Shown here: one piece after another, positions 19,448-41,672 of the stretch
How the letters are laid out: every line of letters starts with the position of its first letter
How positions within the stretch are numbered: the first letter of the stretch is position 1
The notes under the pieces: model-generated
Told to the model about the DNA's origin: nothing
The model's input: only the letters and a program-made list of their open reading frames with translations
The model's database searches: none
Origin: Clostridia bacterium
Lineage (GTDB): Bacteria > Bacillota > DULZ01
Direction of reading: 5' to 3'
NCBI GenBank assembly: GCA_012840125.1
Contig: DULZ01000049.1
Span: 1-54,216 of the forward strand
DNA: 54,216 nucleotides
Program-made: the position numbers and the translations under genes

Positions 19448-20521
19448 TTAGACCCGCAGGATGCGGCGCCCGGCGGCTTTGGTGAGCCGGTTCATAATGG
19501 CCAGCCCCAAGCCTTGGGGCGGCACTCCTTCGGCATAAACCAGGTCCAACCGGTACCGGTCACAGTTGCGCAGAGCGCCGTAAAGACGATTAGCGATTTC
19601 CTCCAAGTGGTCCTTTGACCCTAACACCTCCAGGTAATGGGGTGGGACCAGTTGTTGTTCTCGATAGGAACGGGCCGTTTCCGCGGTGAGCAAAAGCCCC
19701 ACCCGCAAGCCCCGGTCTCTTGCCTCCTGCACCAGCCGGCTTAAGGTATAGAGCCCGGCGGCGGTGAGGCCGACGACCACCGTCACCCGGGCTTTGGGGG
19801 CATAATGGGTATATTTCATCCCCGGCGCCCTGGGTTTGAACTCTTTTCCTCCTTCGGTCGTCAAAGCCGGATCCAGGACCACCGGGCCGATGACCTCCTC
19901 CAGTTCTTCCTTGGTGATTCCGCCGGGCCTCAAAATCACCGGGGGGCTTGCGGTAAGATCTAAAACGGTGGATTCCACCCCGACGGCCGTTCCGCCTGCG
20001 TCCAGCACCAGATCCACTTTCCCGGCCAGGTCTTTTAAGACATGCAGCCCGGTGGTGGGGCTGGGCCGGCCGGAAAGATTGGCGCTGGGAGCAGCCACCG
20101 GCACCCGGGATTTTTCCAGCAGGGCCAGGGCCACCGGGTGGGCCGGCATCCTGACGGCGACGGTGTCCAGGCCGGCGGTCACCACATCGGGTACGCACCT
20201 GCGCCTGGGCAGCACCAGGGTCAAGGGGCCGGGCCAAAAAGCGTTCATCAACAGTTCAGCCTCCGGCGGCATCTCGCGGACCAGCATGTCCAGGTCATCC
20301 ACCCTGGCAATATGTACGATCAAGGGATTATCCGCAGGCCGTCCTTTAGCGGCAAAAATCTTGGCCACGGCGGCGGGATTCAGGGCGTTGGCTCCCAGGC
20401 CGTAGACAGTCTCCGTGGGAAAGGCGACGGTACCGCCCCATCTCAGGATCATTGCCGCTTCCGTCAGGCAGTCGCCGCCGGGACTGCCCGGGAAAATCTT
20501 GCAATAACGGGTTACGTTCAT
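19448..20521 (-). CDS. sua5: Threonylcarbamoyl-AMP synthase Sua5
   Basis: A 357-residue enzyme making threonylcarbamoyl-AMP from threonine, bicarbonate and ATP, the first step of t6A modification at tRNA position 37. The YrdC domain (about 1-215) includes FPTETVYGLGANA, IFAAKGRPADNPLIVHI and VAAPSANLSGRPSPTT. The C-terminal Sua5 domain (about 240-357) begins after the linker RAPGMKYTHYAPKA, the conserved lid motif. Corresponds to ywlC. It is the last core gene before the accessory island. Confidence 0.95.
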   Translation of the reverse strand: MNVTRYCKIFPGSPGGDCLTEAAMILRWGGTVAFPTETVYGLGANALNPAAVAKIFAAKGRPADNPLIVHIARVDDLDMLVREMPPEAELLMNAFWPGPLTLVLPRRRCVPDVVTAGLDTVAVRMPAHPVALALLEKSRVPVAAPSANLSGRPSPTTGLHVLKDLAGKVDLVLDAGGTAVGVESTVLDLTASPPVILRPGGITKEELEEVIGPVVLDPALTTEGGKEFKPRAPGMKYTHYAPKARVTVVVGLTAAGLYTLSRLVQEARDRGLRVGLLLTAETARSYREQQLVPPHYLEVLGSKDHLEEIANRLYGALRNCDRYRLDLVYAEGVPPQGLGLAIMNRLTKAAGRRILRV

Positions 20522-20621: not shown

Positions 20622-20646
20622 AATAAAAAAGGCAGCGTAAAGCTGC
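20622..20646 (-). terminator. Terminator-like hairpin at repeat copy A edge
   Basis: On the minus strand GCAGC-TTTAC-GCTGC (20632-20646) is followed by CTTTTTTATTT, a good intrinsic terminator. It is the outer left flank of palindromic repeat copy A, and the same 15 bases recur at 20869-20883. It would stop minus-strand transcription coming from the island toward sua5. Confidence 0.6.
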
Positions 20647-20883
20647 ACTCCAGCTTGTTGACTAACTGTCTCTTTGTGTTCGGTGTTAATCGCCGGCTGC
20701 AAGGAGCCCCATTTGGGGATGAGCTCGGTCGCTCTCGGACGCCTCCCATTCGCACCTGGCGGTGCTCAGAGGTCGGCGTTCTCCCTCGAGCTCCCTCGCT
20801 CTTTTGATTCTTGGTCCCATGCAGCCCTACGATTAACACCGAACACCCTTTTGTCTACAGTCTGAAGCGCAGCGTAAAGCTGC
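20632..20883. repeat. Palindromic repeat element, copy A
   Basis: Core 20676-20846 (171 bp) is bounded by a perfect 17-base inverted repeat, GTGTTCGGTGTTAATCG and its complement, with GGCTGC/GCAGCC pairing further inside. The interior is nearly identical to copy B at 41.4 kb, including 37 consecutive shared bases around the hairpin GCACC-TGGC-GGTGC. Outside the core, GCAGCGTAAAGCTGC occurs as a direct repeat at 20632-20646 and 20869-20883. Short frames across it have no supported product. It could be a small non-autonomous mobile element or a structured RNA. Confidence 0.85.
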
Positions 20884-20970
20884 GCTCAAAGGGCTGGTAA
20901 AAGGACAATCGGGCGTAACAGGGCCTTCCCACGGAGCGTTTTTATTGCTGCCCCCGCGGCAGGCGCTGCC

Positions 20971-21791: not shown

Positions 21792-22622
21792 TTGGAATAT
21801 ATCATCTATTGCGATGAATCCGTTAAACAGGGAAAATATTTCCAAAACTTTTATGGCGGTGCTTTAGTTAGTTCTAAGGATTTAATGCTTGTCAATGCAT
21901 CATTATGTGAAAAGAAGAAAGAGTTAAACATACTTGGTGAAGTTAAATGGAACAAGGTGTCAACGAATTACCTCGAAAAATACATGCAACTAATGGATGT
22001 ATTTTTTGCTTTTGTCAAAGATAACATAGTTAAGGTAAGGATTATGTTTACACATAATTATACCCCTCCGAAAAACCTTACCCGGGAACAAATCGAAAAC
22101 GGGTATTTCCTTTTGTATTACCAATTTATTAAACATGCCTTTGGCTTACAATATTGCAACTCTACCGGCCAGCCAGTAAGACTTAGGATCTATTTCGATA
22201 AGCTGCCGGATACAAGAGAGAAAAACGAAAGATTTAAAGATTATATTTATGGGTTACAGCACCTGAAACCATTTCAAAAGGCCCACATAGTAATTGATAG
22301 ACAGGATATAACAGAAGTAATATCTCATAACCATGTTATTCTTCAGTGCACTGACGTCATACTAGGAGCAATGCAATTCCGGCTGAATGATATGCATAAA
22401 GAAAAACCTCCCGGTCAATTTCGAAGGGGTAAGAAAACCATCGCAAAAGAAAAGTTATACAAACATATCAATCGACTTATCAGAGATATACATCCGAATT
22501 TCAATATCGGGGTATCAACAGGCATAGCGGATTTAGCTGACAAATGGAATCAGCCATACAGACACTGGAACTTCATACCAAGAGAATACTACATTGACCA
22601 AAGTAAAGTCAAGAACAAGTAA
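21792..22622 (+). CDS. DUF3800 domain protein
   Basis: A 276-residue protein starting YIIYCDESVKQGKYF, the RNase H-like first strand with aspartate and glutamate that defines DUF3800. Further acidic positions occur in RIYFDKLPD, VIDRQDI and near the end in STGIADLADKW, in line with a metal-dependent nuclease fold. The function is not established; such genes often sit in mobile or defence islands. The start is TTG 21792 behind GGAGGAGG. Base and codon use are clearly AT-richer than all neighbours, pointing to horizontal acquisition. No adjacent partner gene is seen. Confidence 0.75.
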   Translation: MEYIIYCDESVKQGKYFQNFYGGALVSSKDLMLVNASLCEKKKELNILGEVKWNKVSTNYLEKYMQLMDVFFAFVKDNIVKVRIMFTHNYTPPKNLTREQIENGYFLLYYQFIKHAFGLQYCNSTGQPVRLRIYFDKLPDTREKNERFKDYIYGLQHLKPFQKAHIVIDRQDITEVISHNHVILQCTDVILGAMQFRLNDMHKEKPPGQFRRGKKTIAKEKLYKHINRLIRDIHPNFNIGVSTGIADLADKWNQPYRHWNFIPREYYIDQSKVKNK

Positions 22623-37694: not shown

Positions 37695-37746
37695 AACAAA
37701 CTCAAATCGGTGTCAACCGGAAGGCTGTTTCCGGTCAACACCGATT
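37695..37746 (-). terminator. Long hairpin, likely terminator of fba-DUF1540
   Basis: Arms of 18-19 bases (37705-37722 and 37728-37746) pair with two mismatches: AATCGGTGTcaACCGGAA and its near complement. On the minus strand a T-rich TTGAGTTTGTTTATAAT follows. It lies between the DUF1540 gene and transaldolase. Its outer CAATCGGTGTT equals the end of the inverted repeat of palindromic copy B. Confidence 0.65.
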
Positions 37747-37769
37747 GGTAATCTCAAGCACAAATGCGG

Positions 37770-41315: not shown

Positions 41316-41345
41316 CCTTTCCCTCTCCTGCCGTGCAAAAGTCGG

Positions 41346-41587
41346 AGCGGTATCGCCTTCAGGCCGTTGAACAACTGCAAACCCGGCAATCGGTGTTAAT
41401 CGCGGGCTTCAGGGGAGCCCTATTTGGGGATGAGCTCGGTCTCCCTCGGATGCCTCCCATTCGCACCTGGCGGTGCTCAGAGGTCGGCATTTTCCCTCGA
41501 GCTCCCTCGCTCGTTTGATTCTTGCTCCAATTCAGCCCTCGATTAACACCGATTGCCCTTTGCCTGTGAGCAGGGAAGCGGTACCGC
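41346..41587. repeat. Palindromic repeat element, copy B
   Basis: Core 41385-41557 (173 bp) is bounded by a perfect 18-base inverted repeat, GGCAATCGGTGTTAATCG and its complement. The interior matches copy A closely, sharing ATTTGGGGATGAGCTCGGTC, the 37-base block around GCACC-TGGC-GGTGC, and CCCTCGAGCTCCCTCGCTC. The outer four bases differ from copy A, yet both ends of each copy remain complementary. Near-identical direct repeats AGCGGTATCGC (41346) and AGCGGTACCGC (41577) lie outside, again different from those of copy A. Confidence 0.85.
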
Positions 41588-41672
41588 TCTAGCTCTATTG
41601 TATCTCAAATTGGCCCTGAAAAACACTTGCCGGCGGCGCGGCAGGCTTATCGGCCAAGAAAACCGGAGCAAA

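Follow-up and report, generated by a model that had tools for sequence, protein, structure and literature searches.

The outer ends of a palindromic repeat from a Clostridia bacterium, which differ between copies yet pair within each copy, are maintained as complementary sequence rather than matched by chance, and they belong to the element itself, closing its core as the last base pairs. The probable explanation is that these ends are the terminal pairs of a rod-like foldback of ~180 nt kept by selection for its shape, and that this foldback is the core of a non-autonomous, MITE-like element of ~213-217 bp, which an IS1182-type system would mobilise while duplicating the target hairpin. Two copies of the repeat, A and B, lie in the window, that is, the whole stretch of 54,216 nucleotides of contig DULZ01000049.1 that was analysed. 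Their features are as follows.

41385..41557, no strand assigned: core of copy B, a rod-like foldback with the outer helix GGCAATCGGTGTTAATCG / CGATTAACACCGATTGCC
41345..41356, no strand assigned: left hairpin-like flank of copy B, GAGCGGTATCGC; direct score 17 and inverted score 20 against the right flank
41362..41392, plus strand: left end of copy B, a degenerate form of the family end CTTGTTGACAAACTACA..AATCG; boundary inferred from the ~31-nt distance in other copies
41550..41574, plus strand: right end of copy B, degenerate; boundary set from the 24-27-nt distance in other copies
41577..41589, no strand assigned: right hairpin-like flank of copy B, AGCGGTACCGCTC, weak like the left flank
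20673..20849, no strand assigned: core of copy A, covariance-model match of 157.9 bits
20652..20864, plus strand: whole element of copy A, between its two hairpins
20629..20650, no strand assigned: left copy of the duplicated hairpin of copy A, AAGGCAGCGTAAAGCTGCACTC; direct score 34 against the right copy
20865..20887, no strand assigned: right copy of the duplicated hairpin of copy A, AAGCGCAGCGTAAAGCTGCGCTC

The covariance model matches copy B at 41383-41559 with 167.3 bits. The outer helix of copy A, at 20675-20846, reads GTGTTCGGTGTTAATCG / CGATTAACACCGAACAC, and the interiors of the two copies share 92% identity over 126 nt. Copy B is flanked by two divergent ORFs whose starts face it, one on the minus strand from 41315 and one on the plus strand from 41755, which by eye we take to be alanine racemase-like and sigma-factor-like, respectively; copy A is located upstream of an ORF that begins at 20521 on the minus strand. 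Both strands of copy B, folded as the original prediction had proposed, fold far better than shuffled sequences (z -6.4 and -7.4). The hairpin duplication is clear around copy A, whose direct score passes the threshold of >=18 used in a test of 43 copies, and weak around copy B, whose direct score falls under it.

In the source genome (G000, 106 contigs), blastn returned 18 matches in ~15 distinct places, several of them at contig ends; because the assembly breaks at the repeat, this copy number is a lower bound. Four contigs of this assembly (C20, C48, C69 and C78) terminate inside repeat copies. Over 61 genomes, blastn matches occurred in three, all of family f1. Allowing up to 3 mismatches, pattern matching found 68 occurrences in G001 and one in G002, and scanning named genomes gave 42 stretches in three MAGs, which by their contig positions agree with G001 (JAAYOX01), G002 (JAAZDD01) and G064 (JAAYHE01). 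Near full length was reached by 44 of the 92 unique matches. Base pairs were counted in an alignment (A1) of 45 copies from 3 genomes, from which L113 was excluded (contig end, misplaced anchor) and to which L007 and L008 were added; the 48 partial, rearranged or truncated matches, less these two, stayed outside the counts. The repeat is thus multicopy, dispersed and short, as MITEs are. An exact 20-mer search of viral contigs gave 0 matches to the repeat, and blastn of plasmids and phages with copy B gave none. Literature searches outside subscription journals and ISfinder brought up no description of the repeat or of a whole hairpin being duplicated in nature.

The pairing first noticed in two copies proved to be general across the 45 copies. 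The core folds into a single rod of 57 pairs with asymmetric internal loops and a small apical hairpin. Changes on both sides are found at 21 of the 57 pairs, compared with 9.8±1.6 in shuffles, and over the whole structure 89 cells are doubly changed, against 27.9±4.6 in shuffled alignments (0/500 reached that number); slid controls gave 25 or fewer. The compensatory changes looked for in the outer helix are present: pair 5-179 is A-T in 11 copies, C-G in 11 and T-A in 10, pair 8-176 is T-A in 35 and C-G in 8, and pair 11-173 is G-C in 29 and A-T in 11. Copies with non-pairing outer ends, which would have spoken for coincidence, did not turn up as a rule, as 91.5% of first-helix cells are paired (88.5% of cells overall). 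Pairing ends at the fourth alignment column, pair 3-181 being standard in only 14 of the 45 copies. While the helices change on both sides, the inner loop motifs GAxTGAGCTC / CTCGCTCTTTTGATT remain constant in family copies and in distant homologues.

Such homologues were identified by searching 249 genomes with the structured covariance model R1. Matches at E 0.01 occurred in 13 genomes, three of f1 and ten others, where the rough, per-genome E-values lead one to expect ~2.5 chance matches over the 249 genomes; eight of the ten (out of 246 genomes outside f1) have E <1e-5. The 29 distant matches, 26 of them distinct, form alignment A2, in which 50 of the 57 pairs are doubly changed over the 26 distinct rows, against 36.4±2.6 in shuffles and at most 27 in slid controls, a covariation that leans towards the structure since the alignment was fitted to the model. 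A model of sequence only recovers 18 of 19 distant loci (L230 is missed), mostly through inner positions, and these inner motifs are common to f1 and the distant loci. From the loci found by sequence 15 were taken and 2 dropped for want of flank; at all 13 remaining loci, recognised through inner-motif sequence, each outer end pairs better with its own partner than with that of any other genome, with an own mean of 27 compared with 19 for the best of 132 other-genome pairs. Together with the 45-copy covariation and the distant rows, this strongly supports the proposal that a long stem has been maintained. No hairpin duplication was seen at 17 distant loci, not all of which had both flanks, so the core is not tied to the mobility of f1. 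Since it lies there in other flanks and without this duplication, the core is either older than the f1 mobile form or carried more widely. The copies in G045 carry an outer inverted repeat of their own. By eye, no common gene neighbour of the distant single copies was seen.

In f1, the core is embedded in a larger unit. The ~180-nt core sits inside IS1182-like ends, and the whole, ~213-217 bp, has a copy of a hairpin on either side. In alignments anchored on the core, left ends are close to CTTGTTGACAAACTACATTTTCCCAATCG and right ends read CGATTGCCCTTTTGTCGACAGTCTGA; judged by eye, imperfect terminal inverted repeats are present (TTGTTGACAAA / TTTGTCNACAG). The flanking hairpins vary between copies and are, in many copies, identical within a copy, with loops that agree in direct orientation. 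In direct matching, the two flanks of one copy score 21.4 on average, and flanks taken from different copies 13.6 (42 copies). When the boundaries were fixed (43 copies), the mean direct score is 20.3 against a permutation maximum of 13.4, and scores of at least 18 are reached in 21 of the 43 copies compared with 1.5% of other-copy pairs. Inverted scores reach 18 in 18 of the 43 copies, against 3.3% of other-copy pairs, a rise expected because the flanks are themselves hairpins. Flanks also fold better than controls taken 60 nt further out (p 1.7e-7). A clear duplication is absent in 22 of the 43 copies, copy B included. Target duplication with an empty site, a further mark of MITEs, thus holds for about half of the copies. 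The element is a non-autonomous, MITE-like mobile repeat, and its length of ~217 bp would argue against coding capacity.

To locate empty sites, the sequences flanking 12 G001 copies were searched for in its congener G002 and in G000, and ten loci were inspected (L110 and L111 were left out). At these ten orthologous sites G002 has, in six cases, a single copy of the hairpin found at the occupied site and, in three, one unrelated hairpin; L123 is uninformative. For L079, L077, L102, L115 and L094 both flanks are adjacent in G002, with a single hairpin to which the pair at the occupied site is homologous; L114 has one homologous hairpin with only the left flank anchored, and L072, L099 and L020 have one hairpin of different sequence. 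The G000 sites of L077 and L094 hold one hairpin each, less similar, and that of L079 lacks the right flank. With many natural copies and six empty sites showing the doubling of a hairpin, the geometry of strand joining at the hairpin becomes testable.

The ends of the element suggest what may move it. Reversed, the right end is CAGACTGTCGACAAAAG, which contains CAGACTGT, common to the IS1182 inverted repeats of G002 and G095. The inverted repeats of these elements contain CAGACTGTGTGAAAAC in G002 and CAGACTGTGTCATAATT in G095; those of the G002 element read ACGGCAGACTGTGTGAAAAC, its transposase scores above the NCBIfam IS1182 cut-off, and the G095 relative appears to sit within a split palindrome. 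Direct repeats of IS1182 elements in ISfinder measure 0-60 bp. Eight bases are shared between the repeat ends and the two IS1182 elements, and an autonomous copy with identical ends was not found: relatives searched with PF13751 and an IS1182 protein contained no transposase bearing the element's ends, and an end-motif search led to no recognised autonomous element. G001, with ~70 copies, gave no IS1182 match, and G000 only a C-terminal fragment of an IS1182 transposase. Likeness in ends and in target behaviour points to an IS1182-type transposase as the putative mover, short of proof.

The target behaviour is that of a known group. Like our element, some members of the IS1182 family target hairpins (PMC5678879), and PMC12056078 describes IS1182-related transposases as acting with or without target duplication. 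Work on stem-loop-replacing transposition by IS1272/IS1182 (PMC5678879, PMC4923244) describes hairpin or terminator targets without sequence consensus, as here, and removal of the target hairpin by IS1272, which leaves no duplication. Our element, in contrast, has a hairpin on both sides, and it has no internal transposase gene, unlike IS1272/IS1182. Wan et al. 2017 put forward, as one possible pathway, that a hairpin would be duplicated if strands were joined at its 5' feet (PMC5678879), and duplication of the whole hairpin corresponds to pathway b in their Fig. 13. The papers cited here describe structure-directed transposition for IS1272, with loss of the hairpin; in the present element the hairpin is doubled. 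We infer the following route. A DDE transposase of the IS1182 type would act in trans on the CAGACTGT-like ends and link the element to the 5' foot of each arm of an extruded, terminator-like target hairpin; the single-stranded arms would then be repaired, which would copy the whole hairpin. Bacterial MITEs and ERIC-like palindromic repeats are likewise short, multicopy, mostly intergenic foldbacks with IS-like ends (PMC10969869); the present element differs from them in having a core whose structure compensatory changes preserve across families and in a duplicated target that is a whole hairpin of variable length.

Several other origins of the complementary ends were weighed against selection for shape. 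Coincidence was conceivable while only a small number of copies had been seen; the further copies refute it, since the 45-copy covariation, the 26 distant rows and the own-partner test in 13 of 13 loci all count against it, and we regard it as vanishingly improbable. Insertion into palindromic targets, also put forward in the original prediction, is half right: insertion at hairpins is real, whereas the outer ends as remnants of split palindromes are refuted at the six informative empty sites, which hold the hairpin without the outer ends, and by the position of the hairpins, ~24-36 nt further out and arranged as direct repeats. This origin is accordingly highly improbable. If templated correction, in the form of quasipalindrome repair or arm-to-arm gene conversion, kept the arms complementary without selection, this would account for the few one-sided intermediates, for the joint switching of several adjacent pairs and for outer-stem switches scattered over the interior tree, where the 8 switches required at pair 8-176, with a single non-pairing row, are about as many as the 7.5 for shuffled labels, the tree being poorly resolved. 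Against it, the inner loops remain unpaired and conserved from f1 to other families of the phylum, where correction would be expected to close them, and pairing stops at a fixed boundary. As the sole cause we judge it unlikely; as a contribution to the pairing under selection for shape, templated correction could play a part.

Whether the fold acts in RNA or DNA bears on the phrase "RNA or cruciform DNA" in the original prediction. The share of G·T among standard pairs is 1.9% in A1 and 5.0% in A2 (within the outer helix it is 2.6% and 3.1%, much like that of A·C cells), and column-level counts of G·T and A·C are similar (23 vs 25); in RNA helices the usual G·U share is about a tenth. Orientation relative to neighbouring ORFs is unbiased in the 35 of 43 copies with both neighbours (++ 11, -- 11, -+ 7, +- 6). 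As G·T is rare and shows no strand bias, and the copies no orientation bias, a folded DNA strand or cruciform is slightly preferable to RNA, which is kept as a rival. Mismatches within helices, for which strand bias was judged on helix interiors and at column level, are one-sided (C·T 24 vs G·A 1 on the plus strand), pointing to a single functional strand. That asymmetry, read on the minus strand as G·A, also fits a strand-specific structured non-coding RNA, minus strand as written, spread by mobile elements; so do better folding of the minus strand in all copies looked at and tandem G·A in the conserved inner loops of that strand. The G·T frequencies and the absent gene-orientation bias speak against such an RNA, as does the comparison with Rfam 15: the core shares conserved loops and covarying helices with structured RNAs and matches none of the 4227 families at gathering and E-value thresholds. 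We hold this RNA to be a possible but doubtful alternative. The sole listed Rfam match, c4-a1b1 (E 1), lies outside the copy. Under the preferred reading, the core would act either as a protein-bound cruciform or in single-stranded, folded form, as ssDNA or RNA. Integron attC, whose boxes are R' GTTRRRY and R'' RYYYAAC, was rejected as an identity: by eye, the outer-stem GTTAATC misfits the box, and the stem is wholly different in distant homologues.

More tentatively, with the balance tipped somewhat against it, the core may be a new class of structured nucleic acid, at the ssDNA or RNA level, carried by several families of one phylum in unrelated flanks, with its conserved loops as a protein- or enzyme-binding site, and mobilised in f1 by a whole-hairpin-duplicating transposase, which would make the f1 copies natural cases of pathway b. 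A phylum-wide covarying set with conserved loops and no Rfam family offers an entry to such a possible new structured element.

A second, unrelated dispersed palindromic repeat (GTAATGTTTGCTTCGC..GCAGCTTGCTGCCGG) with the same ends as the element occurs at L168, L145, L180 and L190 (G001/G002); a duplicated hairpin is present at L168, which adds to the support for hairpin duplication. At L146, L160 and L162 the right end of this second repeat adjoins the apical hairpin of copies of family 1; the left sides are missing or recombined there, so that these loci show no duplication. On the minus strand of the window, 22620-22686 matches the Rfam DUF3800-VIII RNA beside an opposite-strand ORF (21792-22622), with no link to the repeat seen, and 37700-37751 is a weak covariance-model match (24.3 bits, 52 nt), perhaps a deletion derivative of the core. 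At L157 (G000 C101:3404) the end motifs nearly touch between two hairpins without a core, as in a minimal derivative or a remnant. At L078 and L088 (G001) and L010, L017 and L050 (G000), the centre is swapped for other sequence while both arms are retained, indicating modular interiors.
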